DNA of 31,748 nt from a virus: positions 6,050-37,797 of IMG/VR virus record IMGVR_UViG_3300030419_003381; one strand, written 5' to 3'. The notes under the pieces are model-generated. The model did not search any database and was not told the DNA's origin. It was given only the letters and a program-made list of their open reading frames with translations. This document shows positions 1,587-23,300 of this stretch, one piece after another (positions within the stretch are counted from its first letter, which is position 1; each line of letters starts with the position of its first letter). Made by a program: the position numbers and the translations under genes.

Positions 1587-1827
1587 AGTTCAGCCTTTTA
1601 TAGTATTCATGTCAATAAAAAATGAAAAAGGTAAGGTAGAAGATATACCATTAAGACCATTTTCTTATGAAGGGGAAGCAAAAGTTTACATAGCTGGATA
1701 TGTTGACGCTATAGTTAATCATACTGGCGAAGCAAATCATGCTGATGTAATGGGTCAGTTTTCAATACGAAATGTAACTGGCGAGATTAACGTTAATAAA
1801 TCAGATAAGGAGACTAAAAATGTCTAA
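1576..1827 (+). CDS. Hypothetical protein (83 aa), directly upstream of the ubiquitin-like gene
   Basis: Not recognised. The sequence alternates short hydrophobic beta-like stretches (PFIVFMSI, KVYIAGYVDAIVN, GQFSIRNVTGEINV), suggesting a small mixed alpha/beta fold. GGGAGAG precedes the ATG. It overlaps the previous gene by 11 nt and the ubiquitin-like gene by 8 nt, so it is almost certainly co-translated with the latter. A partner or target of the ubiquitin-like protein is possible from position only. Confidence 0.6.
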   Translation: MENEVQPFIVFMSIKNEKGKVEDIPLRPFSYEGEAKVYIAGYVDAIVNHTGEANHADVMGQFSIRNVTGEINVNKSDKETKNV

Positions 1828-2029
1828 AACAGTAAAAATACTATCAGGTGGTGGTTTCGTAACTAAAGAAACACGTGCTGAAACAATGAGTGAATTGCGA
1901 GAAGAAGAGGGTATTAGCTCTACTGCTTCTGCAGCTGTAGGTGGAGTAAATGTAAATAATTCATATCAAATACAAGAAGGTGATATTATTGCATTTGTAA
2001 ATAATGATAAAACTGGTGGTATAAAATAA
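1820..2029 (+). CDS. ThiS/MoaD-like beta-grasp ubiquitin-like protein ending TGGIK
   Basis: A 69-residue protein with the layout of ThiS, MoaD and related ubiquitin-like proteins. It has a first strand (TVKIL, residues 4-8), a TMSELREEEGI helix segment (22-32, compare TVAELL in ThiS), a middle strand (AAVGGVNVN), then IQEGDIIAFV (51-60) matching the LxxGDxVAF signature of MoaD. It ends in Gly66-Gly67 followed by Ile-Lys. In this superfamily the C-terminal di-glycine is adenylated by an E1-like enzyme and used for sulphur transfer or conjugation. The two residues after Gly-Gly imply proteolytic trimming. JAB peptidase, E1-like and candidate E2 genes lie 1.8-4.7 kb downstream on the same strand. 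No molybdopterin or thiamine genes are present, which favours a conjugation role. Confidence 0.75.
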   Translation: MSKTVKILSGGGFVTKETRAETMSELREEEGISSTASAAVGGVNVNNSYQIQEGDIIAFVNNDKTGGIK

Positions 2030-2039
2030 AGTCTGTCTC

Positions 2040-2436
2040 AATCCTTGGGTAGAGGATGTAAAATAAGCTACCCAAAATTTAACCATAGTTTCTAAGATAT
2101 TATCGATGCCACAGTTAGTTAGAGCCTGGATAGATAAGCCTGGTCTTAGACTAGAACAAAACAGGTGAGATGCGTACCGACGTGCGGTCTATGAGGCATA
2201 CTGCATAATTTGTTACTATGGTATTCTTACCACACCCCGGCATAAAGCTATGACCCACTTTTTTAGCCTATCTTGCAGATTAGCTCCGGGGTGTATCTTA
2301 TTATCCATAAAGAGCCATAGGCAATTCAAGTGATTAATTTCGCTTGACCACGTAAAATAAGACGTTAGTGTTTTGTTTCGAATTGCTATTATAAGGCTAC
2401 AAGTTGCTTATAAAAAACTGTAAAGTCCTATGGCTA
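2040..2436 (+). ncRNA. Candidate large (about 400 nt) structured RNA
   Basis: The 420-nt gap 2030-2449 has no convincing frame but many long complementary segments: TTGGGTAG 2045-2052 with 2068-2075 (8 bp); ACCATAGT 2082-2089 with 2215-2222 (8 bp); TCTAAGA 2091-2097 with 2144-2150 (7 bp); ACCG 2176-2179 with 2185-2188; ACACCCCGG 2232-2240 with 2286-2294 (9 bp), extended by AGCTA 2246-2250 with 2281-2285; and AGCCATAGG 2313-2321 with 2427-2435 (9 bp), which encloses CAATTC 2322-2327 with 2380-2385, a stacked hairpin 2328-2345 and ATAAG 2391-2395 with 2407-2411. It is more GC-rich than flanking genes. The size recalls the large ornate RNAs found in phages (GOLLD, ROOL), but I could not match a consensus. 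It lies directly after the ubiquitin-like gene. Confidence 0.6.
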
Positions 2437-2467
2437 GTGGATATAAATATTGATAATAGGAGTTGAT

Positions 2468-2746
2468 ATGTATAATAAATGTTTTAATTGTGAAGCATGT
2501 TTGAATTGTAATAAAAAGAAAGGTCATTGTCAATGTAACAAATTTAATGCTTATAGAAATGAGACTATGACTTTCGGTAAATATAAAGGGTTATCCTTTA
2601 AAGACATGAAAAATAACTATCCTGATTATTTAATATGGTTGTCAAGTAATATGCCTAAAAGTCGTATGCCTGATAAATTATATTATTATATAAAAGTTAA
2701 TAGAGATGAGATAAATAGCTTAGCAAGTAAAAAAAGGAGACAATAA
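2468..2746 (+). CDS. Cys-rich zinc-finger plus DUF3820-like protein (92 aa)
   Basis: I start at ATG 2468 because AGGAG lies 5 nt upstream; an in-frame TTG at 2450 lacks such a site. The N-terminus is a dense cysteine cluster (CFNCEACLNC...CQC, residues 5-22) fit for one or two zinc ions. The following TFGKYKGLSFKDM...YLIWL matches the short FGKYKG...YL-WL domain known as DUF3820, often found near or fused to exonucleases and in phage small proteins. Function is not established. The stop overlaps the next ATG as TAATG. A nucleic-acid-related role is a reasonable guess. Confidence 0.6.
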   Translation: MYNKCFNCEACLNCNKKKGHCQCNKFNAYRNETMTFGKYKGLSFKDMKNNYPDYLIWLSSNMPKSRMPDKLYYYIKVNRDEINSLASKKRRQ

Positions 2747-3114
2747 TGGGATTTGATATAGTAGGTAAAAAAGCAAAATCTGAAAAAGGTGAATATTTTA
2801 GGAATAATGTATGGTTTTGGAGACCTTTATGGCAATATATATGCATTGAATGTGACGATATATTAACTATAAAGCAAGCTGAAGGTGGATGTTTTAATGA
2901 TGGAGTTAAAATAAGTAAAGCTAAAGCAGAAAGAATAGCTAAAAGGCTTGAAGAAAAGATACAAGATGGATCAGTTGACTTGCATAAAGCTGGATATGAT
3001 GCAACAGTTGATAAAGTTGGGGATAAATGGGCTCAAAATTACCCATTTTTAACTGAAAATGTAGTAAAATTTGCTGAATTTTGTAAAGAATCTGGTGGAT
3101 TTGAAATCTGGTAA
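2746..3114 (+). CDS. Conserved phage hypothetical protein (122 aa)
   Basis: The opening MGFDIVGKKAKSEKGEYFRN and the aromatic motif VWFWRPLW (residues 22-29) resemble a widespread tailed-phage protein of unknown function that typically begins MG-D--G and carries a YFRNNVWWWRPLW-type segment. The middle has two cysteines (CIEC), then a charged helix (AKAERIAKRLEEKI) and a C-terminal helix (NVVKFAEFCKESGGF). Length is typical of the group. It is coupled to the previous gene by TAATG. No catalytic residues can be proposed. Confidence 0.65.
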   Translation: MGFDIVGKKAKSEKGEYFRNNVWFWRPLWQYICIECDDILTIKQAEGGCFNDGVKISKAKAERIAKRLEEKIQDGSVDLHKAGYDATVDKVGDKWAQNYPFLTENVVKFAEFCKESGGFEIW

Positions 3115-3123
3115 AGGAGACAT

Positions 3124-3474
3124 ATGTATTATAATACAAATAAAGAGACAGGCGATCAATTAAACGATTCAAAGTCTAAAGCTAAAACACAAGATGAAAT
3201 AATATTAGATATTTTTAATACTTTTAGACTAAACAATGGATTAAGTCCATCTGAAGTAGAAGTATTATTAGTAGAAAGATATAATAAAAATTGGCCACTA
3301 ACTAGTATAAGAAGATCTATATCTACTTTAACTGATCAGGGTAAGTTAACTAAAACCAATAAGTTACGAGGAGGTAAGTATAATAAAAATGAACACGTCT
3401 GGAAATTTAAACCGAAAACACGTCAAGATATTAATGACACACATACTCCTGCAGAAAGGGATAATAGATTTTAA
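3124..3474 (+). CDS. Winged helix-turn-helix DNA-binding protein (116 aa)
   Basis: After a polar N-terminus (about 22 residues), the segment from TQDEIILDIF to EHVWKF (about residues 23-94) reads as a winged helix: helix 1 (EIILDIFNTFRL), helix 2 (SPSEVEVLLV), recognition helix (LTSIRRSISTLTDQGKL) and a basic wing (TKTNKLRGGKYNKNEHVW). Such proteins bind DNA as regulators or architectural factors. The ATG follows AAAGGAGAC. It is the only obvious transcription-factor-like protein in the window and precedes the E2/JAB/E1 genes, so it may regulate part of this block. Confidence 0.6.
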   Translation: MYYNTNKETGDQLNDSKSKAKTQDEIILDIFNTFRLNNGLSPSEVEVLLVERYNKNWPLTSIRRSISTLTDQGKLTKTNKLRGGKYNKNEHVWKFKPKTRQDINDTHTPAERDNRF

Positions 3475-3640
3475 ATGGGATACATGTGCGGGATCTAATG
3501 AATTATATTTTAGAATTGGTTATTATGATAAGTTCTTTTTAGAAGATGGATTGCAAAATGTTTTTAAAGAAGTTGAACACGAAGACAGTGATTGTGGATT
3601 ATTGTATTCATATTATTTAAAGGAAAAAGATGAAGACTAG
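3389..3640 (+). CDS. Hypothetical protein (83 aa or shorter), overlapping the winged-helix gene
   Basis: Not recognised. The frame overlaps the preceding gene by 86 nt. The first ATG has GAGGAGGT upstream but with an unusually long spacer of about 14 nt. The internal ATG at 3434 would shorten the overlap but has no clear ribosome site, so the start is uncertain. The rest is acidic with aromatic residues (LYFRIGYYDKFF, LLYSYYLKEKDED). It overlaps the following small gene by 11 nt. Confidence 0.45.
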   Translation: MNTSGNLNRKHVKILMTHILLQKGIIDFKWDTCAGSNELYFRIGYYDKFFLEDGLQNVFKEVEHEDSDCGLLYSYYLKEKDED

Positions 3641-3815
3641 AATAGATAAATTGAAAAGTTGTAATAAGTGCAGAAAAGTTTGGCATAAAACCTATAGAAT
3701 AACCAGAACAGTTAATTATAATGGATACAGTTATTATAATGACTTTCCACATTATGGATTAGAAAAAGTGGATTGTCCAAAATGTAAGGAGATAAAAAAT
3801 GGCAGCAACGCTTGA
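3630..3815 (+). CDS. Zinc-ribbon microprotein (61 aa) upstream of the E2-like gene
   Basis: Two well separated Cys pairs, CNKC (residues 11-14) and CPKC (about 49-52), flank a tyrosine-rich beta-like segment, the pattern of a four-cysteine zinc ribbon. An AAAGGAA site precedes the ATG. The gene overlaps the previous frame by 11 nt and the E2-like gene by 17 nt, so it is translated with the conjugation genes. A zinc ribbon in this position could be a substrate-binding adaptor, but only its location supports that. Confidence 0.55.
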   Translation: MKTRIDKLKSCNKCRKVWHKTYRITRTVNYNGYSYYNDFPHYGLEKVDCPKCKEIKNGSNA

Positions 3816-5082
3816 TGCAAGAAATAGGTTCTTAGATGGTATTCGAGATATAGATAATATTATAGAAAGAATAGCATTAGGACCACAAGAGGAAGTGTTA
3901 GAAAAGTTTACAGAGCTAAATAGAAGATTTGGTACTGATTTTAGATGTACGCCAACATTTAGATGGGCACCTGGATTCTATAAAAAGTTAATGAATGAAG
4001 CTGGTAGATTATCTAATATTACTATTCAAAAGAATAAAGTATCTACTTATGCCAATCAAATACAAAATGGTAGATGGTATGTAGATGCTTTTATGACTAA
4101 AATACGAGAGATAGATAATAAACTATATTATTTAAGGAATAGCGGTATTTGTTTTCAAGATAATACTGATGATGTAAATAGAGTGCTTGGAGAATACAGA
4201 GATACTATATCTGATAGTATAGATGTTGCAATGGAAACATATCCTAATATGAATATATCTATTTATCATGGAATACATAGTGGCGATAGATCAAGATCAG
4301 TTCATGCTATTACATTTCACATTTATCTAGAAAATACTTGTATGAATATAAATATGGGAGGTGAAACTGTAAATGTTCCAATGGGAGACTTAGATATTAT
4401 TATATCTGTTGATTTAATAAAAAATATAATGAATAGAATAAGAAATGTTAGCAGATATTCACAAGGAAATACACAAAGTACTCATAGTAGCAATTGGAAT
4501 GGTGCTATATTTCATCCTCAAGAAGAAAATATACTATTTCCATATATTGGCAGAAATACATGGAATCATTCATTAAATGTTAATTTCGCTGAAGGACAAA
4601 ATACACCTGCAAAGTTTAATAATGTATGCTTTGGTGATTATACAAGTGAAATAGTAGAAGCTGCATGGAAAGGCGATATATTAGCTTTGTTTGCATGGAT
4701 TAATATATGGACTCAAAACTTTAATGTAGGTAGAACAGGACCTTTAAATGGATTTGAAACTATGTTTCATGGTATATGGCCTGAAATGGCAAGTGAAGTA
4801 TGGGAGTCAAGCGGAAGACTAGGTCATGTTTCTAGAATGGAAGGTTGTAACTATGCAGAAGTATTACAAGAAGCACAGCCTGCACAAGATGAATCATATT
4901 GCGATAGATATCAATGTATTCTTCGTGATAATTGTGCTGCATATAGGGCTATGTATATACCGCCAGAAACAACAGAAAATAATAGAGAAGTAGCTAATCA
5001 AGAGGGAGAAAGAACATTAACAGAAGCTGAAATACTAGCAATGTATCAAGGCATAAACACAGTGGATGTAAATCCATTTTAA
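3799..5082 (+). CDS. Candidate E2-like (ubiquitin-conjugating fold) protein, 427 aa
   Basis: The N-terminal about 130 residues are helical and unfamiliar. Residues about 150-330 hold an E2-like reading: a beta-rich region (AITFHIYLE, DLDIIISVDL), then an FHPQ motif with His239-Pro240, and about 35 residues later NNVCFGD with Cys277 followed by a long helix and WINIW. Bacterial E2-like families typically show an HPH/HPN motif, then N-x-C-x-G-(D/N) with the catalytic Cys, followed by hydrophobic helices. The C-terminus adds a possible metal site (C350, C368, C373, C379) and an acidic tail. AAGGAG lies before the ATG. JAB and E1-like genes follow immediately (13-nt gap, then overlap), the strongest support for an E2 role. 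It could instead be a substrate or scaffold of the system. Confidence 0.5.
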   Translation: MAATLDARNRFLDGIRDIDNIIERIALGPQEEVLEKFTELNRRFGTDFRCTPTFRWAPGFYKKLMNEAGRLSNITIQKNKVSTYANQIQNGRWYVDAFMTKIREIDNKLYYLRNSGICFQDNTDDVNRVLGEYRDTISDSIDVAMETYPNMNISIYHGIHSGDRSRSVHAITFHIYLENTCMNINMGGETVNVPMGDLDIIISVDLIKNIMNRIRNVSRYSQGNTQSTHSSNWNGAIFHPQEENILFPYIGRNTWNHSLNVNFAEGQNTPAKFNNVCFGDYTSEIVEAAWKGDILALFAWINIWTQNFNVGRTGPLNGFETMFHGIWPEMASEVWESSGRLGHVSRMEGCNYAEVLQEAQPAQDESYCDRYQCILRDNCAAYRAMYIPPETTENNREVANQEGERTLTEAEILAMYQGINTVDVNPF

Positions 5083-5095
5083 TTAAGGAGATAAG

Positions 5096-6046
5096 ATGAA
5101 TCAAGACTTTTATATAAGTGAAAAAGACTGGAATAAAATCCAGAATTATGCTCAGGCAGCTTATAATAGTAGTAAATCTGAGATAGGCGGTATGTTAGTA
5201 GCTATTGAAGATAAAGATGGTGATTGGGAATTAAAGGATCCAGTCATACTTAAGCAAGAAATTAGCGGGAGTAATTGTGTATTAGATAAAGACGATCTAG
5301 CTTTATATTATACTAAAGTGGGAAGTAAACTCAAAAATAAAAACTTTCGCTTTGTATGGTGGCATAGTCATCACACAATGGATGCTTTCTGGTCAGGCAC
5401 AGACCTAACTGCTATTAAAGAATATTCTGATGGAGATTTTAGCTTTGCTTTAGTCGTAAATCTTAAAGAAGAATATAAACTTAGAGTTTCAATATGGAAA
5501 CCTTTTGAGGTACATGAAGATGTAGATCTAACTATCATGTCTAAAGAAAAGAAAGTACCTAAGAAGATAGAAGATGAAGTTGATGATAAATGTAGTGAAA
5601 TTTTTCATAATTATACTACATCTATATATAAAAATGGCAAATGGAGTAACGTTGACAAGGGAAAGTCGAATCAGATGACTCTAATGGATACCAAGGATAC
5701 CAAAGTTGGTGGTCTAAAGTTTAATCCTGAGTTATCTGGAGACACAGAAGATTATATTTATGCTTATGGTATGGTAGATGAGATGAATAAAAGATATTGT
5801 GATGGCAGATTGACATATGAAGGATGGATTCTGATGGCTAAAGATGTAAATAAGTTACTTAAAAGCACTTATGAAAGTCCTTATAGGGTAGAACTTGTAA
5901 CTGAGAGTGTACTTTCAGATCAAGTTATGTTATCAACACCGCATGAATATATAAACGTAGACCCAACCATAGATCCTCTTTTCGATGAGCACTATGAAGA
6001 TTGGCTAGATTATAAATCATGGAACGCATCATATGGAGTAAAATAA
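5096..6046 (+). CDS. JAB/JAMM-family metallopeptidase (deubiquitinase-like), 316 aa
   Basis: The first about 145 residues form a JAB/MPN domain with every metal-site residue present: Glu29 in SEIGGMLV, then H90-S-H92 followed by exactly seven residues, Ser100 and Asp103, the HxHx7SxxD signature of active zinc isopeptidases. Such enzymes cleave after the Gly-Gly of ubiquitin-like proteins, either maturing precursors or removing conjugates. The C-terminal about 170 residues (from about 150) are charged, partly helical and not recognised; they could bind partners. TAAGGAGAT precedes the ATG. Its stop overlaps the E1-like ATG (TAATG). The neighbouring genes and the TGGIK end of the 1820-2029 protein make precursor processing the likely job. 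Confidence 0.88.
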   Translation: MNQDFYISEKDWNKIQNYAQAAYNSSKSEIGGMLVAIEDKDGDWELKDPVILKQEISGSNCVLDKDDLALYYTKVGSKLKNKNFRFVWWHSHHTMDAFWSGTDLTAIKEYSDGDFSFALVVNLKEEYKLRVSIWKPFEVHEDVDLTIMSKEKKVPKKIEDEVDDKCSEIFHNYTTSIYKNGKWSNVDKGKSNQMTLMDTKDTKVGGLKFNPELSGDTEDYIYAYGMVDEMNKRYCDGRLTYEGWILMAKDVNKLLKSTYESPYRVELVTESVLSDQVMLSTPHEYINVDPTIDPLFDEHYEDWLDYKSWNASYGVK

Positions 6047-6705
6047 TGATAAATACAAGATCATCAGAGTTAGTAAATAACTTAGAAGACTTTACCTTTC
6101 ATATCTTGGGCTGTGGGGCTATTGGTAGTTCCGCAGCTCTTCAAATAGCAAGAATGGGTGCAACTCAATTTTGCTTATATGATATGGATAAAGTAGAAGA
6201 AGTAAATATAGGTGTATCACAATATACCTATGATGATATAGACAAACCTAAAGTAGAAGCATTATCAAATCATTTGAGAAAACTTGGAGTATTTAAAATT
6301 AATGAAGTTAATGGTAGATTTTCTCAGTTTAAACCTCAAGGTAAAAATGATATTGTTATATTAGGATTTGATTCAATGTCATCAAGATTAGAAGCAGTAG
6401 AGGCATTATTCAGCATCCCAGGAATAAAACCATTATATATAATTGATGGTAGAATGGGAGCTGAACATTATCAGCAATATGTATTTGATAATCCTACTGT
6501 ATCTAAATACAAGAAGACCTGGTATTCAGATGAGATTGGTAGCCCAGAGCCTTGCAATGCAAAAGCTACAAGCTATTGTTCTAATCTATCGGGTAGTATG
6601 ATAGCAAATACAGTAAGGAAATTAGTAACTGAACAACCTTTCAACAGGTCATTTTCATTTAACTTTCCTAATATGTTATTGGATAAGTCAGTTATGGTTT
6701 CGTAA
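6046..6705 (+). CDS. ThiF/E1-like adenylating enzyme (219 aa)
   Basis: A Rossmann-type ThiF/MoeB/E1 fold protein. From ATG 6046 the nucleotide loop GCGAIG is at residues 22-27, the strand-end acidic residues D46-x-D48 follow, then N54...Q59 and K69, and the strand GFDSMSSR has D109 and R114. Cys170 and Cys178 near the C-terminus are candidate transfer or structural cysteines. E1-like enzymes adenylate the C-terminal glycine of a ubiquitin-like protein. The Arg that often precedes Gln in N-x-x-RQ is Ser58 here. I prefer ATG 6046 to an upstream in-frame ATG at 6019, because 6046 has GGAG at 6035-6038 and overlaps the JAB stop. It is the last gene before the terminator at 6749. At 219 residues it is a minimal E1. 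Confidence 0.87.
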   Translation: MINTRSSELVNNLEDFTFHILGCGAIGSSAALQIARMGATQFCLYDMDKVEEVNIGVSQYTYDDIDKPKVEALSNHLRKLGVFKINEVNGRFSQFKPQGKNDIVILGFDSMSSRLEAVEALFSIPGIKPLYIIDGRMGAEHYQQYVFDNPTVSKYKKTWYSDEIGSPEPCNAKATSYCSNLSGSMIANTVRKLVTEQPFNRSFSFNFPNMLLDKSVMVS

Positions 6706-7296: not shown

Positions 7297-7821
7297 ATGG
7301 CAAGAACATTTACACTACCAAAAAAAGGTACAGGCCAATGGACAGAAGGTTGGCATACAGTAACAATAAGTAAAGCAGAATATGGGACATTAGATAATGG
7401 ATCTAAATATATAGATGTATGGTTTAATTCTTATCCTGACAATTTTAATATGCGTATATATGAAAAAATAGGTAAGGATGGAGAAGAATTTGCAATTGGC
7501 AATTTATTTAGATTTTCTAATGCAGGTATTACTGATGCTTTAGAAAGTGCTACTGGTGAAACAGTAATTAAAATGAATGATGAACCTGAGGAACTTAATG
7601 GGAAAACAGTAAATGTATATTTCTATAAAGATGGAAAATATACTAGAATACTTGGACAAGTTGCTCCAGTGCCATTTAAAAATCTGGTAGAAGAGTTTAA
7701 TGAAAAAGATGTTACATACTTTAAGACTAAAGCTGAAACATTTTTCACTAAATGGATTGAACCAAAACTAAAAGATGAAACTCATGAGGAAGAATCAATA
7801 GCTAGCGATATCCCTCTTTAA
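7297..7821 (+). CDS. Single-stranded DNA-binding protein-like (174 aa)
   Basis: The body is rich in short beta strands (WHTVTISKAEYG, YIDVWFNSY, NMRIYEKI, KTVNVYFYKDGKYTRILGQV), consistent with an OB fold. The C-terminus is acidic and ends HEEESIASDIPL, like the acidic DDIPF-type tip through which SSB proteins recruit partners. A DUF669-like phage protein is an alternative name for the same kind of molecule. AAAGGAGAG precedes the ATG. Its place between the ERF annealing protein and the primase-helicase supports an SSB role. I cannot confirm DNA contacts from sequence. Confidence 0.65.
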   Translation: MARTFTLPKKGTGQWTEGWHTVTISKAEYGTLDNGSKYIDVWFNSYPDNFNMRIYEKIGKDGEEFAIGNLFRFSNAGITDALESATGETVIKMNDEPEELNGKTVNVYFYKDGKYTRILGQVAPVPFKNLVEEFNEKDVTYFKTKAETFFTKWIEPKLKDETHEEESIASDIPL

Positions 7822-11441: not shown

Positions 11442-14325
11442 TAGTTAAAGCAGCTAAAGCAGCAGCCTTTACTCTCTTGTCTTTAGCAGAACTCTTACTA
11501 TCTATATCTACATTTGGAAGTATTGGAATCTGATTATAGGTTTTATCAGCAAGACCTTTCATTACACCTTTTCTCCAATTTTTCATCCACCTTGGTTGAA
11601 AGATACCAGATTCAACCCTTAAAGCTTTTTCCATTTGACCTTTCATAAGAGCTGGCATTGTATGCCATCCTGTTCTGGCTCCCTGTATGCTAAATATACG
11701 GGCAACATTATACCACCAATCAGGATCTGATGGGTCATAATTAAGGTTTCTATGCTCTTCATATTCTGGAGAACCAGAAGCTTGATCAAGGAAATCTAAC
11801 AATTCAGCAGCTGTTAATATATCGCTTATAAAAGGACCAAGATTACCTGTTATAGGATTTTTCCCATAATACGCAGCATATTTTTCCTTTTCATCATCTG
11901 AAAATATATAATTATAAAGCTTAGAAGCATCTTCAATAATTGGATTTTCTATAATTGATACTCCAGATCTTTGAGTTCCTTCTTCAGCCCTGTCTTCTTT
12001 AAAGGGACTACCAAAGGCACCAAATACTCCTCCTAAATCACTATTAAATGCTAATCCTGCTAAACCTGGAAGCAATGTGTAAATAGAGGCCATTCTAAAC
12101 ATCCTAGAAAAACTTTCACTAACTACCATTTCTCCAGTTATTGGATCTCTTTCCTTGAAATTAAAATCTTTAACATCTCTAGCAAAATCCTTAATAAGAT
12201 TATATTGCATATCGAAAAATGCAAACTTAAAATGTTGATACTGACCTATAACTTTACCACCTTTAGATCTAAGTATTTTAGCCTTTGCCCATGTATCATA
12301 ATCATAATGTAAAGTTCTAACCATATCATTAGCAGCATTGCCTGCATCGTTTTCAATCTTGTCATATATATCTTTTTTTGTTGCTTCTCTTCCAAGCTTT
12401 TTCCTTAAGTTGGCTGCATGATGATCATATCTACTTTGTTCTATCATAAAAGCATTTGCAAAAGCAATTTTAAAAGTATTTAACCTATTAGCATTTTCAG
12501 CCCATGCCATTGGTTTTGCTGCAAAATTAGTAAATTTTTCAGCAGTTAATGAAGCTCTCTTTAAAGTGGTTCCTTTTGTTTCAGGTATAATTTTACCTAC
12601 AGAGTTTAAGGTAAATCCTTCAGGAACATATAATATATCCATTGATCCACCTGTAGCAGCAGATGTCATTGTCCACCTGTCTCCCATCTTTAAACCAAAT
12701 CTTCTTAATTGCCTTTGAAGTAATGCTTTATTATCTCTAGCCTTTCCAGTTTCTTTACCGCTAGGATCATATTCTCTATTACTTCTTTCGTAAAACTCTT
12801 TAGATCTATTATAGCCTTTTCTTCCAAAGAAAACCCAATTATATAATCCTTGAGTCCTATTCTTTAATGCTCCTCTTACACTAAATCCTAACTTAGATAT
12901 ATACTCAAACCCATTTATAATCTGAACCATATGGTCCATGCTATCCATAGATCCTTTATGATGATTGATTGCAGAATCTCTAATCTCAGTAAGAATAGAT
13001 AGCATCTCACGAGAATAATCTCCAACATCCCCACCTTTCATATCAGCATTATTGCGAAGCTCTTTAAATAAGGTTTTAGTACCTTCACTAAATGCATATT
13101 GTATTCTTGCCCTTGAATTAAAGCTAGCTACATCATGAGCATATTTATTTAAATAATATATAGGATCAAGAGATGAATATAAATCTGTTTCAGGAGCTTT
13201 AAATTTTAATCTAGTTGTATTTAAATCACTTTCCATAAGGCGTTGAGCATCTCTATATAAAGCTTCAGCATTATCATACCTAAAATTAGTCTTATCTTTA
13301 TTTAATGCATACTCTGATATATTAGATACTATATCAGCTAATTCAATCACATAACTTGGAGAATATTTCTTGACACCTACCGCAAACTCTCCAGTCTCTT
13401 TATCAAATACTCTATAAGGCTCATTCTTTTTTGTCTCTGGATTAAAAACTTTCATTTCAAATCCATAGTTTTCACCAGTAGGAACAGCTAGCAATTTATC
13501 CTTGCTGGATTGCACTAATAAATGATCAATCTTTTCTTGTATTAAGTCAATAGATTTATTTAAATATCCAACATCCTCTAATGATGAAAGCTTAGATCTT
13601 ATAGCCATCTTTGCCATAGTAGCTCCATTTAATAGATTTTGCATAGAATTAGCACGCATTATATTCCATTCTCTCTGTATCATTCTTTCATTTTCATTCT
13701 TTGGTTGCTTTGAAAAATCTAGCAATCCTTGAAACCTACGCAATACTTGTCCCCCTACAGGAGTATTATTGTTATCTAAACTTCCAACTATTTTAAATAG
13801 CTGATTAATCATTGCTGTTTTTTGCTCTTGAGTTTTAGCCCCTATTAAATTTCTTTCTAGCTGTTGAAATTCTTTGAACTTTTTGCTATCCCAGTTTGCA
13901 TCTTTAATCATTCCGTATAATCCATCAATCATAAATTTAATATGTTGAGCACTTTCCTTTGTTTGTCTTTGATGGAATGATAGAGTCTCTGCTACATTAT
14001 TATAAAATTCTTCTCCTCCTTTTACATTTCTTACTAAAGCTTTTGGAAGCTTAAAGTATCGAGAGAATAAAGATTTACTTTGACCATAATTGTTTACAAA
14101 GTTCTTAACTTCTCTTTTGTATCTCTTTAATTCATATGGTTCTATCTTAATATTATCAAGATCAAATGGTTTGTTCTTGTTAGCTTTTCTCCAAAGCCAT
14201 TCTGCTGTTTCTGCTGTATTGTCTCCATTCTTAACTATCTTATAATTATTATCTAGTTCTCTACTTACTTTAAGAAACTCATCAAATCTTTTTCTTTGTA
14301 TGGGATCAGTTGTCAGACAATTCAT
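11434..14325 (-). CDS. Large internal virion/ejection protein (963 aa)
   Basis: I start at ATG 14325, where AGGAG sits 7 nt upstream and the ATG overlaps the previous stop (TAATG). The protein is largely helical and charged. A segment with WAENANRLNTFKIAF and, further on, A-NDMV-TLHYDY and GKVIGQYQHFKFAFFDMQ (about residues 630-740) resembles the C-terminal region of large polyvalent phage proteins (LPD38-like), though this is a by-eye resemblance. A hydrophobic glycine-rich stretch (SIYTLLPGLAGLAFNSDLGGVFGAF) could insert in membrane. It follows the 3005-residue gene and is probably co-injected with it. No enzymatic motif is seen. Confidence 0.6.
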   Translation of the reverse strand: MNCLTTDPIQRKRFDEFLKVSRELDNNYKIVKNGDNTAETAEWLWRKANKNKPFDLDNIKIEPYELKRYKREVKNFVNNYGQSKSLFSRYFKLPKALVRNVKGGEEFYNNVAETLSFHQRQTKESAQHIKFMIDGLYGMIKDANWDSKKFKEFQQLERNLIGAKTQEQKTAMINQLFKIVGSLDNNNTPVGGQVLRRFQGLLDFSKQPKNENERMIQREWNIMRANSMQNLLNGATMAKMAIRSKLSSLEDVGYLNKSIDLIQEKIDHLLVQSSKDKLLAVPTGENYGFEMKVFNPETKKNEPYRVFDKETGEFAVGVKKYSPSYVIELADIVSNISEYALNKDKTNFRYDNAEALYRDAQRLMESDLNTTRLKFKAPETDLYSSLDPIYYLNKYAHDVASFNSRARIQYAFSEGTKTLFKELRNNADMKGGDVGDYSREMLSILTEIRDSAINHHKGSMDSMDHMVQIINGFEYISKLGFSVRGALKNRTQGLYNWVFFGRKGYNRSKEFYERSNREYDPSGKETGKARDNKALLQRQLRRFGLKMGDRWTMTSAATGGSMDILYVPEGFTLNSVGKIIPETKGTTLKRASLTAEKFTNFAAKPMAWAENANRLNTFKIAFANAFMIEQSRYDHHAANLRKKLGREATKKDIYDKIENDAGNAANDMVRTLHYDYDTWAKAKILRSKGGKVIGQYQHFKFAFFDMQYNLIKDFARDVKDFNFKERDPITGEMVVSESFSRMFRMASIYTLLPGLAGLAFNSDLGGVFGAFGSPFKEDRAEEGTQRSGVSIIENPIIEDASKLYNYIFSDDEKEKYAAYYGKNPITGNLGPFISDILTAAELLDFLDQASGSPEYEEHRNLNYDPSDPDWWYNVARIFSIQGARTGWHTMPALMKGQMEKALRVESGIFQPRWMKNWRKGVMKGLADKTYNQIPILPNVDIDSKSSAKDKRVKAAALAALTRL

Positions 14326-17300
14326 TAACACTCTCCTAAGTATTTTTGCTTTAATTCAAACTCTGCATTGTTTTTGCCTTTACTTTGAAGTTGGAAATTA
14401 GTACCTTTTTCATATATTGATCTACTGTTAAAAAAATGTCCATCTGGATCTATATCTATTCTATCTACACCTTTCCAAGATTCATTCATAAACCTAATAA
14501 CTTCAGTAGGATTAGGAACTTCATTTAATTTATTCCCATATAGATTATATGTAGCTCTATATAGCTCTACAGGATCCATAAAATATGAACCGCTTAAATA
14601 AGACAGCATAACATTTTTAGCAGTATTATCTAAGTTAGGATCTAAAGCCCATTCAGGAAGAGTTTTAGGCTTAGGTAATATACCTCTGTCAGAAGGATCA
14701 CGCATAGCTCCTTGAAACTTAAATGCATCTCCTTTTAATGCAGGATTATATTCTAACATATATGCCTTCATGTGATTATCTACTATATCTTTATGTAGCC
14801 TGCCTGCAATATCTTTTCCTAAGTCTGAAGAATCATCTGTTTTTGCTCTATCTAAGAATGAAAAGACTAATCTTTCATTATATTTATTTTGATGAAAGCT
14901 AGGAACATATTGACTTCTACCCTCAAGTGCATTATATCCTACTATATCGTAGGTATTTTTTCTTACTTTTGGAGCTAGCAAATTGTACAATAATTGTTTA
15001 GTCATAACTTCAGATCTACCATACATTGATAGCCCTTGAATATCTTTGATAGCATCTGAAAGGACTCTTAGATGAGCCTCTGTAACCACCCCAAACTTAT
15101 TAAATGATGTTGCTCCATCTTGGGTTAATAGTTTTGAAGCTTTATTTAAATCTTTTTTATACTTTTTTACTATACTATTAACTTGCATTAACTCAATATC
15201 GGTTACTATCTGTCTTGCAAAAGCTCTACTCATTGCTCTTCTTTGAGCTGAAACATTTCCATTTTCTATTCTTACTTTTGCATAGTTCTGAGCTAATATT
15301 TCTCCCTTTCTATAAGTAATTAATTGACCTGGTTTATATTCTTTGATAGGGAAAACATCATAGCCAGTAGCACTCTTGTCATTCTTGTTTCTTATGAATT
15401 TTAAAACAGGATAATTTCTTCTTGTACTACCTGCCTTATCTTTAACTTCAAATTTATTTTCACTATAAGTAGCATTAAGATTAAACTCCGAGACTAATTG
15501 CTTCCTATTATCTCTCATATTCTTTAAGGTTTCAAATTTATCTTTATTTATAGAGCCACCTCTTCTACCATGCATTCTTAAATTATCTAATACATTCTCA
15601 ATTTGCTCTACTTCCCATGCTACATACTCCATTTCAGCCCATTTATCCCGATCTTTAATAGTCTTCTTTACATATGAACTAAACCGATCATTTGATACAG
15701 GAGTACTTGAGGCCATCATACTTGCCAAATCACTTCCAGATGGTATACCTCTTTTGAAATTTTGTCTTAAGCTATTTTCTATAGCTATCAAACCTTTTAT
15801 TAATGGATGACTTGATTGGCCTAAGGAAGCACCACCAATGTCCTTACTTCCACCTAATCTCTGATCCCCTAAAAACCTTAATATATCATTAGATAAAACT
15901 TTAAGCTCATTACTGTCTCCTAAGTTAAAAGAACCGTCTTTGCCCTTATAATGATTATGACCAGCTAAGCTTATTTTTCTTTTTGCTGATTGAAAAGCAT
16001 TATTAACTTCCCAAAGACTCATCTTCCTTCTGCTTCCGTCAGACATATATTCTGTCATATTAGCAATATTAAATATCTCAGCAATAGGCAGCATTATTTC
16101 CCTAACCATTTTCGAATGAAGCTTTCTGAAGTCTTTATTTGTGACATCTACAGCCTGAACTACTTGTCCAAGATCACCTGCACCCATTTTTGTCTGATAT
16201 ATTTCAAACATGCCTTCTATTTTTTCGTAAAGCATATTTTCTATTTGCTTAGGATCTATCTTTGATGGATTTTTATATATATCTATAGTCTCTTTAATTA
16301 AAGACTTAGTATTTTGTATAGCATCAACAAACTGGGCTCCACCTTTAAACTTAACAGTATATGTTGATCTTCTACCTTCATGTTCAAATAATTCCATTCC
16401 AGAATTTTTATGATAATAGTCTGGCCTTAATCCAGGAAGCAATTCATTTTCTTTATTTTTTACTGCTGCAAGTTGATACAGAAACGATGAAACAGAATGT
16501 GACCTTACTAATGCTGGTCTCTTTGCAGCTAACTCCATCATGTCAAGTCTATATTGTTCTACATCTACACCAGATATAGTATCCATTCCTTCTAGCACTT
16601 TAAAGAATACATCTTTAGCAGGATCTTGATAGCCAGAGAAATTATAAATCTCTTTAATAACCTTTCCAGGCAATGCAAAAAAGCTAGAAGATTTATCTAA
16701 ATCAAAATCTGCATCCTGAGTATCAATGACATCTAAATAATTCATCTCTGATACAGGGCCTTTTTTATGATTTAATAATTTTTCTACTTTAGTAATAACC
16801 CTATCATTAGCCCCAACCATTGGAGTTCTAAGGTCAACCTTAGCTAAATGTATATTCTTATATGAGTTTCCACCGGCAATAGTCTTTGCCATTGAGAATG
16901 CAGTATTATTAGTAGTTCTAAAGTCTAGATTAGGATCTATTGATTCTCCTCTTCTTCCATCAAGATACATTACAAAATCACCGATAGTATGAACATCTCC
17001 AGACTGTAATGCCCTATCAACTATTTCTTTATAATCTTTCGATATATCACTTTCTAACTGCTTTAGAAGCTTACTATCGGCAGCCTTTCTCTTTTTTGCA
17101 GTTATATCTCTTTGAATCCCAAATCTAATGTCATCTAACCCAGGCCCCATTAATTGTCCATCAAAAGTATATACTAAGTCAACTCCTTCTTTAATGCCCA
17201 TAGGAGCGAACTCTTTATACTTAGCTGCTAAAGATTTATCAACATTAAATATTAAGCTTATACCTTCATTATTACCTTTGAACAGCCCAGATATAGGCTT

Positions 17301-20300
17301 ATTCCAAGAATAATATGACATTCCACTTCCCCCAAAAGATGTTTGAGTCCCACCTTCTCTTATCCCTATCGAAAGTCCATCTCCAGCTGTCATTGCTTCA
17401 TAAGCTCCATTTTTCATTTGGCTAGAAGTAAAGTTTCTTCTTCCTAGATATTCAGATACAACCATCTTTTCAATTTGAGGAGCCATATATTCAAAGGAAG
17501 GAATACCTCCTGATTGTATAATCCCTTCAATACCCATTACTTGCATTAAATTATCTCCATGCTCATAATTGATACCTTTTAAATGCTCAACTATTTTCCT
17601 GCTAGCAAATGGGCTTTCACTTAACTGAGCATGCCTTTCAAGTACATCTCTAACTGAGTTTTGAGAACCTGTAATTGAATTTATAGCGTCTGTAGCATCT
17701 TTTGTAAAAAAGTTTGTAAAAGCACTTGACATCGTAGCATCATGCTCTCCGCTTATTGACTTTATAAATATAGCTTCTCTAGGCAGTTCATATATATGGT
17801 CAGATGTGATATTGTTCTTAATCAAATCTCCAAGATGCTCTTTCCAACCTACCCTTAAATCATTACTTGATATTTCTGGCAGATTAAATATTTTAGCTTG
17901 ATATTCAGCATCTGCACTAGACTTAACTGCATTCTTCTTTACAGCACTCTTGAATGTAATTGAGTCAAACATATAATTCCCATCTGAATCTTTCATCATA
18001 GAGTCAATAACTGGATCATATTTATATGCAGTCTTTCCTACATATACAGTAGCACTACCATCAGAAATATTTATTCGAGAATCAAGCTCAATAGGCTTTA
18101 CAACGACATTAAATCCTGTAATTTTTCCATCCTCATCGCGAGTAAACCAATCAGACCTTGCTCCCTTTTGCATTAATATTGAAGTCATTTCAGGCAATGA
18201 TAAGTATTTCTCACCATTAACAATAGATGCATTAATATTTTCGTAAACTTCCATTTGAGCCTCAGCTTCATTTCTGGCTTCAGCTTCAGACATTCCTCTT
18301 TCTTTGATGTATTTTTGAGTTAAGTCTTTCATTCCTCTAACTTGAGTATTAAAAAATGATTCTGCTGCTTTTTTCTCTTGAGGAGTTCCACCTTCATCTC
18401 TTATAGTTAATGTTCTTTGAGGTTTTATAGATCCATCTGGATTAAATGTATGCTTTAAAAATGTATCATAACCATCTCTAAGTATATGATCTTGAGGTAG
18501 CATTCTATCTAAATAAATTTTAGCAAAGTCAGCAGTAGTCTTATCTAATGCCATTCCTGTTCTTGGACTATCTAACTTTAGATATTTCATAAGCTTTCTT
18601 ACATCTGCAATATCATTATTTTTATTAACTACATTAGATAAATCATCATGAAAGCTCCCTAGCATTCTAGTCATTAATAATATATGTTCTGCATTATCTC
18701 CAGTAGTTTTTATCTTTGCATTTCCGTTTTTATCTATTTCTGCTCCTAATTGCCTTCTCAAGTAATCCTCTGCTTTAGCTTTATCACCAACAGCAATTTC
18801 AAATTTCCTTCTATTTTCAGAGGTAGGAGAAGACCAGGATTGAATAACTTTATCAAATGCATTTTGATGTAAGAAAACCATTGTCTTTTCATCTAGCGTT
18901 ATGGCTCTTGTTTGGGCTGTACCTTTTCTGCCATCACCAAAACCAAATGTTCCTAACTGCTCAAGTATAGCTTTATCTCCAGTTGATAATATATCTCTAG
19001 GATTAATATTAGCTCCAACACCAGACTCTACTATACTATTAAGCTCTCTCATAACATCAGGGGTTAATCTAGTTCTAATAGTTCTTTCATTGGCCCATCT
19101 ATTCCCAGCTAATAATAATTGACCAGATTGCAATCCAAGCATTTGTTCCAACTTCACAATGCCTGTATTCCAAGTGGATATATTTGCATGAGATAATTCT
19201 AATACTCCATTGTTAAACACTGCCATAGGAAATTTAGTATTAGCTAAACCCGATTGCATTATGAACATAGTATCCATAACAAAATCTTGATACATTTGCT
19301 CTGAAGTAGACTTCCCTTTTTCATTTGGTGGTAACAATTCCCATTTAGCTTCAATAGAAGCTTTTTGAGATTCAACAACAGGCTTAATGAATATATCTAT
19401 ATAATTTTCATGTGTCATACCTAACATCTTTTGTAATTGATCAAACCCTGATATAGGATCTCCAGATATAGATGCATCATCTACAAGCTTTATGATTCTT
19501 TCTTGCTCTTTTGTTAGTTTTTCTAAGCCTCTAATAAGCTCAATAGGATTCTTTTTAAATTGCTCAACCTTAGTCATATCATTATTAAACCATCTAGCAG
19601 CATATTGAGAGTCTGATATAGATGTATTACCAGCATGAATCTTTCCACTTCTATCTGTCATTCTTAAGTTATCAATAATAGATTCAGTATAACTGTTAAT
19701 ATCCTGTATCTCATCAAAGTTTAATTTTTGTTCTTGTATCTTTCGCTGCTCTACTATAAAATCTCTAAGCGTATTTGTATAATCTCTTAATGCATCTGGT
19801 ACATTAGAATCTGTTTGCATTTTCTGATTCAAATCACTAAGCTTATGCATTCTATCATATACAGACCTGAATCCTATAATATTATCTTGACTTTGATAAA
19901 TAGATAATAACTCAAGTAAATTATTATTCTCTAAAGATAGATCGGAAATTCTAGAACTCAACTCCTTATTTATAGTTCCGTCTGACTCTACTAATTTTTG
20001 GCTTTCTGTAATCACATCTTTAATAGTTTTATTTAAGCCTGAAGTAACATACATTAAAGATTCTAAATCAAGAGCAGATACTCTGTCTGCATTGACAATC
20101 ATCTCTTGCATAAACTGTTTAATCTCTTGCGGAGAATGATATTCTAAATTAATATTATCTCTATTAAATCTAATAAGAGATACATCAGTAAGATTTCTTT
20201 TTAATGGATTTTCTACTATTTGCTTATAGTCTCTTATAAGCTTTCTTGTTTGCTCTGTGATTGCATTTTTTTCTGGACCTCCAGTATTTTCATACTGCAA

Positions 20301-23300
20301 TAATAAGGTCTCTATCTTGTCTGCCTCAACGATATGCAGCACATTTCCTTTTCTATAAGCAAAAGGATTATTAGCATTAAGTGCTGTAACTAAAGCTCTT
20401 CTTAGTCCTGTGCCTAGATTAGGATTTCCAGTTAATTTTGATGTTATTTGTTGCTCAGTATATCTCATAAAGGAAGATAAAACTTCTTGATTGTTTAGTA
20501 GAGTTTCACCTGAATATGATCCTAATTCTTTTACAATATTCTGCTCAACTTTTTCAAACTGTGCTTTTGTAATCTCTCTTATGCCAGTTCCAATATCTGG
20601 AGATAGCATGCCTTTTAATAAATTTAAATTTTCTAACGCTTGCATATTCTCTTTTGAGACGTTAACTAAATCTTGAGCTGTAAACTCTAAACGCTCGTTG
20701 CCTGAATATATATCACCAATTATTTCATTGTACCTGTCTATATTCCCTTCAGATTTTGTAAATATTTCATATGCTTTTCTATTTCTTTCATGAAGTTCCC
20801 ATGTGTGCATAGCATGCCAAACTGGCTTTGATGCCATTATATTAGGATCAGGGAATCCAGATTCAGGAGAACTGTAATGAGGTACAATTTCTCTCCAATT
20901 TAAACCATCTTCACTAAGTGTAAGTTGATGCATCTTTTCTGCATTTGTTTTATATAAGGCATTAAATCTTGATAATTGATCTTCTGTAGGCAATGCCCCT
21001 CTCCAGAGTTGTCCACCTTTATCAGAATTTATAGATACAAATCCAGATCTTTGTGCTTCTATAATAGCATTGTGTAATGCTGAGGCTGAATCTACATATA
21101 TATTTTTAGTTTGTCCTGTTTCATCTACTCTATAATGATTACTTTTAATACTCTCTAAAAGATCAACAGCAGTCTTATGTATTTGAGGCTTACCCATTGG
21201 GTCAAGATCAATCCTTATACCTAATGATTCAAAGGAATCTATTATATACGATATCTCATTATTTCTAATTGATTCGGACATTGCTCCAACAGCATTCTGT
21301 CTTTTCTCTTTTAATACAGTTTCAACAGTAGTTGGGTCTAAGATCCTCCCATCTACTCTTATAGAATTTAATTCTTGTATATATCTGTCTGTTTCTTCTG
21401 CTGTCATAGGACGAGTTTTTTTATATCCAGCTCCTATTTCTCCAGAGTCTTGTAATTTACTTGCAACAAAAAATTGATCTTTAAAAGACTTTAATTCTGC
21501 CTGTAATTCTGATTTCCTAGAAGTATTTTTTTCAGCTGCTATTTGAGCAGTTAGATCAGCAATCTTTTTATGAGCATGAACTTGCCATATTTGAACTGCA
21601 CCAGTCTTATCAGCATTTAATGTAGTTATTATTTCATCTGCATCTGCAAGATTTTCTCTAACTTTATCATGTATTTTTTTCAGCTCAGGAGAATTTTCAT
21701 CAACAGCCTTACTTACTTTCCCTATTGCCTTCTCATTATCTGCAACCCTTGCCATTCCAGCAATTTTATCTAATACTTCAGGTTTATATCCTAATATATC
21801 CATAGTTTTAACCCATGAATTAATTTCTCCGCCTGTACCATCTACTCCTGTTTTTTCAAAGAATCTAGGCATTTTAGGTCTACCCTCAAATGTTTTGCCT
21901 CTCTTCATATAGATCATTCCTATATAATGATCTGCTAATAACTTATCATAAGGATAATCTTCTGTCCCTATAATATCTCTTGATTCATAATACATGGTCC
22001 CATTCATAAGGAGAGATCCAATAGAAGCTCTCCAAAAGGACTCTGCTCCATCTCTTCCTATTTCACTTGCTAGGTTTGCGATCAATCCCTTGTTTAACTT
22101 TCCTTGAGCATCTCTATGTGGAAATACTTCTTTCTTAACCTGTCTAAATGCTTGCCTTAATATATCTACCTGCTCAGGCTTTAACTTGCCGTCAAGTAAT
22201 GATGTAGAAAATCCTTTAACATTACTCAACCAAGATACTGGTTTACCAGCACCACCCCACATCGTCTTTAAAGATAACTGCAATTGTCCTGGGGTCATTC
22301 TTTCTACGTTTCTAAATCTATTTCTAAAGCCTCTTCCTATATGCCCTATATCAGCCATCATTCCACTTTTCCCGAACTGTACTGCCTTACCGCCAGGAAT
22401 GTATCGTGTAGGGGCTAATACGGAGCCTAAAGCAGCCCCATGTAAAGCTCTTGCATACCAAGGTTTAAATAATCCAGGGGCATCTGATTCTTCTAGTTCA
22501 TAAATATTAGCAGCTATTTCACCAGCTTCACCCACCAAAGTATCAAAGGTTCCAAGTAATACTGCTTCATATGCTGAATCTCCAACTATTTGAGATATTC
22601 TGGGACCTACACCCGCTGCACGTAAAGATGTGGATATAGAGTTTCCAAATGTTTTAGTTAAGCTTTCTCCAGCTTCGCCTAATGCCATTTTAGTTAATGC
22701 TGTTAATTGCTGCGGATTGATATTTGGAATATTCTCAACCAAAGTTTCTGTCATTATTTTGCTTGCCTGAGCTTCTATCCTAGGGTTTGCAAGAGGATTA
22801 GTTTTTAATGCTCTTCTTGTAAAGTATGACCATGGTTTAACGCCATTTAATTCTGCATCTAACCCTTCTTTTATAGCCTTTCTGCCTGTCTTTATAATAT
22901 CCTCACCAAGCTCTTCACCTATTTCTTGGCCACCTTTTTCAAATATTTCTTTAGCTACTTTTTTACCAGCAGGTTTAACTCCTGCATTGGCCAATTTAGA
23001 TATTGCTCCTAATCCTTTTCCTATTGTACCTATACCACTTATAATACCTGCACCTGTACCTAAAGCATATCCAACTTTACCAGCTAAAGATTCATCCTTC
23101 CATTCATCTGAACCAAAGCTTCTAGATAATTCTCCCTTAGATGCTATATCAGCTACCGTTGGAAGAACAAGCGACTCCCCAAAACCCCATGCAAAGTTTC
23201 CAAGAAGATCTCCTACTGGAGTATCAACAAAGCCCCTGTCCTCACCAAGGGCTTCTTCTTGTCTTTGAGCTTCTTCTTGCTGAAGTCTCTCTAGCTCTCT

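Follow-up and report, generated by a model that had tools for sequence, protein, structure and literature searches.

The DNA analysed, here called the window, is a stretch of 31,748 nucleotides (31.7 kb) that forms part of a 52.8-kb virus record. Its proteins include an HNH nuclease, an ERF recombinase and a DnaB-like helicase with a primase part. A distant primase is the sole thing shared with the closest named phages, so the lineage is an uncultivated one. The intergenic gap at 2030-2467, which the original prediction had singled out, is real and ranks first in the window: it spans 438 nt, the runner-up measures 230 nt (1147-1376) and the remaining gaps are below 100 nt. Between 2081 and 2300 the GC content rises to 0.43, against 0.30-0.31 in the flanks, as had been noticed. 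The gap contains no + strand ORF of at least 40 aa. In relatives the homologous regions have stops in every + frame and no conserved reading frame, and a protein-coding region was rejected on these grounds.

Directly upstream lies the predicted ubiquitin-like gene (Ubl, beta-grasp; 1820-2029, + strand), whose product carries a C-terminal GG followed by IK. The AlphaFold model of Ubl has a pLDDT of 83 and its best PDB matches in Foldseek are mostly ubiquitin-like folds (1ryj, E-value 4.6e-4; archaeal ubiquitin 6fno), while no Pfam or NCBIfam match was obtained. Three further + strand genes encode a conserved 427-aa protein with no assigned function (3799-5082), a JAB-domain protein (5096-6046; a weak match, below the Pfam cut-off) and a ThiF/E1-like protein (6019-6705). 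These three proteins (3799-6705) are likely partners of Ubl. The Ubl, JAB-like and E1-like genes, all in the early region (1820-6705), resemble a ubiquitin-like conjugation set, and a weak resemblance to PRTRC proteins was also noted. In two relatives, L003 (728-1110) and L004 (6001-6395), Ubl continues at its C-terminus for about 60 residues beyond the GG and looks as if it were a precursor for trimming by the JAB protein.

Judged by comparison of homologous sequences, the gap holds a conserved, previously uncatalogued structured RNA on the + strand. This supports the suggestion of a possible new large phage RNA. The site given for it (2040-2436) is right, but the RNA is slightly longer on both sides: the conserved helices set its limits at about 2034-2443 (~410 nt). 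Searching with the Ubl protein gave eight viral loci with identities of 82-88%, and an Ubl profile added L102/L034 and thirteen more distant loci. DNA homologous to the gap lies behind Ubl in L002, L003, L005 (with its near-duplicate L006), L008, L009 and L034. In L004 an inserted gene separates the 5' pseudoknot from the rest of the RNA. The distant locus L103, whose Ubl is 54% identical, has this RNA too, its stems being largely rewritten. In total, nine viral contigs with an Ubl neighbour carry a homologue at the matching position and in the same orientation (displaced by the inserted gene in one of them). In a tenth, L007, homology begins behind Ubl and the contig ends too early. From the 5' motif to the last arm the RNA measures 324-414 nt in the members measured.

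The family is small: the core occurs in nine contigs, of which eight are closely related. The covariance model R1, made for the core domain from eight members with L103 excluded, recovered L103 at full length with an E-value of 7e-4 and found nothing else in the remaining loci. When twenty virus records were scanned with the core model, nine had a single copy and the non-members had none. BLASTN against named phages gave no match for the RNA, and the gene downstream of it retrieved no related loci when used as a query. Pattern scans of viral contigs (AACAGGTGAGATGYG, TRCTATGGTATTCTTRCC, ACAGGTGAGATN{14,44}CATACTG and GCCTG..CAGGTGAGAT..ATACTG) uncovered no further member; beyond the known members and L034, the inspected matches were coding or unrelated DNA. 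The last of these patterns matched 74 times across 84,980 genomes of bacteria and archaea. These matches were filtered for the P1 and P2 helices, and by eye none of those remaining showed the rest of the RNA, so no homologue was found there. Because such scans need exact conserved words, diverged relatives could escape them. The Ubl profile had no match in the genomes, the 427-aa protein profile brought no new members, and no description of the ~410-nt RNA was found in the open-access literature.

The original prediction had relied on perfect helices, and this evidence stands in part: several of them are conserved, but their number is just modestly above chance. Perfect helices of at least 7 bp number 11, against a mean of 6.1 in dinucleotide shuffles (9 of 200 shuffles reach 11), and those of at least 9 bp number three, against 0.5 (4 of 200 reach three). 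The conserved ones are 2045-2052/2068-2075, 2082-2089/2215-2222, 2091-2097/2144-2150, 2232-2240/2286-2294 and 2314-2321/2427-2434. One of the three pairings of at least 9 bp, 2155-2163/2369-2377, is not conserved in relatives and overlaps the conserved CAGGU strand, and is therefore probably due to chance. The minimum free energy of the region has a z-score of -2.5 for the + strand, compared with -1.25 for the - strand; relatives range from -1.6 to -5.5, with L103 at -5.5. As the helix evidence alone is slightly above chance, the case for the RNA rests on comparison. Compensatory changes, on which the prediction had been made to depend, are present in the core, the D2 arm and the 5' pseudoknot. 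Some of the alignments used are manual or were fitted to a model, the L103 core alignment being fitted to the covariance model; hand-made helix tables were used for L103 and the shorter pseudoknots because MAFFT misaligns these.

The core (2082-2222, ~140 nt) is closed by helix P1 (2082-2089/2215-2222). All of its pair cells are paired (224/224), compared with 93.5% in shuffles and 25-40% when the strands are slid, and six pairs have changed on both sides. Among close members the core is conserved at 0.795 versus 0.738 for the neighbouring Ubl gene DNA overall and 0.653 at its third positions, the Ubl figures being approximate owing to a frame offset for L034 in the comparison. Within P1, helix P2 (2091-2098/2143-2150) encloses a variable hairpin, P3 (2100-2104/2133-2137), which was read by eye and occurs as UUAUC/GAUAA, AGCUG/CAGCU (L002) and AAUUAU/AUAAUU (L009). 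In L103 two P1 pairs, most of P2 and part of P5 are swapped for other complementary sequence, P2 being rewritten as AGAUAAAG/CUUUAUCU. P5 (2170-2173/2196-2199) ends in a C-G pair in four members and a U-A pair in four. The P6 hairpin (2179-2181/2187-2189) shows double changes in all three of its pairs; six different P6 helices exist, and strands taken from different ones pair at 0.39 versus 1.00 when matched. By contrast with these helices, P4 (GCCUG/CAGGU, 2138-2142/2162-2166) is present and invariant in all nine members, and the sequence that starts with its 3' strand, CAGGUGAGAU (2162-2171), is likewise identical in 9/9. We infer that P4 and P2 form a second H-type pseudoknot; in the window it would lack a junction and have an 11-nt loop 3. 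P4 being invariant, covariation does not bear on its pairing.

At the 5' end, a UGUCUC motif (2034-2039) is conserved behind Ubl in every member (UGCCUC in L003). It is complementary to the core sequence GAGGCA (2193-2198, with one G.U pair), and this pairing with the GAGRCA strand of P5 is available in the eight close members and absent in L103. Its GUCUC can also pair with the GAGAC in GGAGAC, the Shine-Dalgarno sequence of Ubl (4/5 bases in L003). The motif is a possible switch or Shine-Dalgarno mimic. Directly behind the Ubl stop codon follows an H-type pseudoknot, D1 (2041-2074), with stem 1 at 2041-2045/2053-2057, stem 2 at 2046-2052/2068-2074 and an A-rich loop 3. The D1 pseudoknot count alone is weak, as 30 of 500 shuffles are equally good. 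In alignable members 100% of its cells are paired, and two stem 1 pairs have double changes. Stem 1 takes the forms AUCCU/AGGAU, AUCUU/GAGAU, GUCCU/AGGAC and AACCU/AGGUU, and stem 2 the forms GGGUAG/CUACCC, GGGUGG/CCACCC, UGAGC/GCUCA and UGAGU/ACUCA.

Two arms follow the core. The D2 arm (2232-2294) consists of P7 (2232-2240/2286-2294), a CAUAA bulge and P8 (2246-2250/2281-2285). Of its cells 96.4% are paired, six pairs have double changes and none of 500 shuffles is as well paired. D2 is swapped for an unrelated helix in L009 and is missing from L103. The D3 arm (2302-2443) is formed by P9 (2302-2307/2438-2443) and P10 (2314-2321/2427-2434). Its closing helix exists in three unrelated complementary forms, GCCAUAGG/CCUAUGGC, CCCCUACU/AGUAGGGG and GCCACA/UGUGGC, each of them invariant within itself. 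Inside D3 are conserved words, CAAGUGAUU (2327-2335; CAAGUGUAA in L034) and variants of UUGACCACG (2344-2352). Behind D3, L005 (~6565-6660) and L004 (~7600-7690) have an extra hairpin, ATGCAAGGT...ACCTTGCAT, possibly a small mobile insert.

Comparison with catalogued RNAs, including the Rfam check for GOLLD and ROOL that had been proposed, gave no match. At the gathering score no family was found in the window, in the rest of the record or in the relatives' RNA regions. At E-values up to 10, searches of the window, L103, L008 and L005 returned unrelated families only, differing from member to member, and no intron or ribozyme model. GOLLD (RF02032) was rejected as an identity, since its model finds nothing in the window's record, and the conserved GOLLD 3' half has no match in the new RNA. 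The same model finds GOLLD in L009 (4216-4631, 167 bits) and in the more distant relative L115 (~158-819, 148 bits, just below the cut-off). L009 is a close relative that has the new RNA and GOLLD on the same strand of one contig; the new RNA is thus not a GOLLD replacement. A Pistol ribozyme also occurs in L009 (3363-3425). Both GOLLD and the new RNA are large, elaborate non-coding phage RNAs without an assigned function. GOLLD and ROOL are often near tRNA genes, whereas no tRNA was found within the 31.7 kb window, where a tRNA or tmRNA identity was likewise dropped. ROOL was rejected because no Rfam ROOL match was found in the window or relatives, and its helix order differs as far as can be judged. 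The two are alike in being large phage RNAs with multiple pseudoknots (two here, one of them putative); for ROOL no protein partner is known (PMC12286853). Many GOLLD members exceed 800 nt, with conservation in the 3' half, as against ~410 nt here, and the functions of the described large RNAs (GOLLD, ROOL, OLE) are poorly understood (PMC12286853). Other candidates fared no better. AAGATATAG and AATCCTGAGC are group I intron-like but do not occur in all members and have no Rfam match, a cobalamin box (GCCAGGAGAC) is found in L005 only, and a type III antitoxin RNA was considered and dropped.

The locus adds an unrelated phage RNA family of ~400 nt, covariation-supported, with nine homologues and a defined core, to the few large structured RNA families known from phages. 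It adjoins a ubiquitin-like conjugation system, and some of its carrier viruses also have GOLLD. The ~140 nt core suits probing, mutagenesis and structure determination, so the role of such RNAs is directly testable.

The reading favoured here, to which we give about an even chance, is that of a stand-alone RNA derived from the early operon and acting in trans, with the 5' pseudoknot being part of the Ubl message. Three observations favour it: the downstream gene varies, the core is displaced in L004, and a conserved core is combined with replaceable arms. The downstream gene differs in most members, which speaks against a leader or riboswitch that controls one given gene behind it. L004 has a spore-photoproduct-lyase-like gene inserted within the locus, with the 5' pseudoknot on one side and an intact core, D2 and D3 on the other; the core therefore need not touch Ubl. 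As only the pseudoknot stays by Ubl, the pseudoknot is probably part of the Ubl message, the core being a unit of its own. Partner recognition is suggested by the combination of a conserved core, unpaired bases in it that do not vary, and arms that are replaceable (L009, L103). Conserved cores with replaceable arms are the usual pattern in trans-acting RNAs.

Under this trans-acting reading, for which we infer the transcription, processing, action in trans and ligand of the RNA, it would be transcribed on the + strand together with the early genes. The 5' pseudoknot would mark where the Ubl message ends and protect it there, and core plus arms would build up as a stable RNA. A protein of phage or host origin, or a second copy of the RNA, may then be bound by those core nucleotides that are invariant and unpaired, with D2 and D3 serving as an exchangeable scaffold. 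A bolder version is rather doubtful: the RNA would represent a new two-pseudoknot class among large phage RNAs and would, in trans, work on or together with the Ubl-E1-like-JAB system, or else be a new ribozyme or oligomerising RNA. Against action in trans counts the position of the RNA, directly behind Ubl in every member except L004, and neither a promoter nor a terminator could be established for it.

The main rival, a possible but unlikely one, is that the RNA acts in cis, as a 3' element of the Ubl mRNA. Its pseudoknots and helices, stacked on one another, would block 3' exonucleases or part Ubl from the downstream genes, resulting in a high dosage of Ubl relative to the E1 and JAB enzymes. 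Its constant place behind the stop codon in all but one member fits this, as does the 5' pseudoknot, which remains with Ubl even in L004 and resembles intercistronic protective 3' structures and exonuclease-resistant pseudoknots in being an H-type pseudoknot directly behind a stop codon. The conserved UGUCUC could pair with the Ubl Shine-Dalgarno sequence, and distant relatives hold a different RNA in the same slot. The adjacency to Ubl and this other small RNA are hints of a cis role tied to Ubl. However, the L004 core is conserved despite its displacement, and protection alone would not call for the unpaired, invariant CAGGUGAGAU or AUACUGYAUAA, features that set the new RNA apart from protective structures. 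To our knowledge, protective 3' stems are also far shorter than 400 nt.

The different RNA in the Ubl slot of distant relatives is a hairpin of ~75 nt (L105 6240-6330, L106 6227-6300, L107, L108, L111 and L104). It has the form GTGGTCAATGCTC..GAGAAA..AAGCTAA.AGAATTG inside a helix of changing yet complementary sequence, and is probably a second new RNA family.

Assembly into a homo-oligomer, by analogy with GOLLD and ROOL, is rather improbable; the readings are not exclusive, and oligomerisation could accompany action in trans or in cis. The RNA is a large pseudoknotted phage RNA and its relatives L009 and L115 carry GOLLD itself; it is however half the size of GOLLD and unrelated to it by the Rfam model.

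A riboswitch or attenuator acting as a leader of the downstream genes is improbable. The compact conserved core resembles an aptamer, and the alternative pairing of UGUCUC with the P5 strand, which in the eight close members comprises six or seven base pairs, could act as a switch. This pairing is however missing in L103, the next gene is different in most members, the structure in the window does not include the downstream Shine-Dalgarno sequences, and no terminator stem with a U-run was seen in the sequence.

The spore-photoproduct-lyase-like radical-SAM gene (TIGR03886, E-value 4e-86, below the cut-off) lies before the RNA in L034 (3395-4270), inside its locus in L004, between pseudoknot and core, and behind it in L005 (from 6680). 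Since its position varies among relatives, the RNA locus is a spot of gene exchange. Such swapping of flanking genes, together with the pseudoknotted core, its invariant unpaired nucleotides, the variable periphery and the presence of a Pistol ribozyme in L009, would suit a new ribozyme class, or an RNA that serves a mobile element as catalyst or guide. We consider this very improbable: no Rfam ribozyme or intron matched at E-values up to 10, the RNA is present as a single copy in a fixed place, and the scanned proteins yielded no transposase or TnpB-like gene. A chance fold in non-coding or decayed DNA, for which the near-chance number of perfect helices and folding z-scores of only -2.5 and -1.6 in two members might speak, is hardly credible and is already contradicted by covariation in three separate domains (core, D1 and D2) and by the recovery of L103 with the covariance model.

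Elsewhere in the window, a second structured non-coding element (1248-1358) lies inside the 230-nt gap. It adopts a predicted three-way fold with the closing helix ATTATAACTG/CAGTTATAAT (MFE -35.5 kcal/mol). The element had no Rfam match. It is 93.5% identical to L002 across 108 nt, and the remaining relatives that were searched gave nothing significant. On the - strand, positions 14325-23342 are occupied by a single ORF of 3005 aa.
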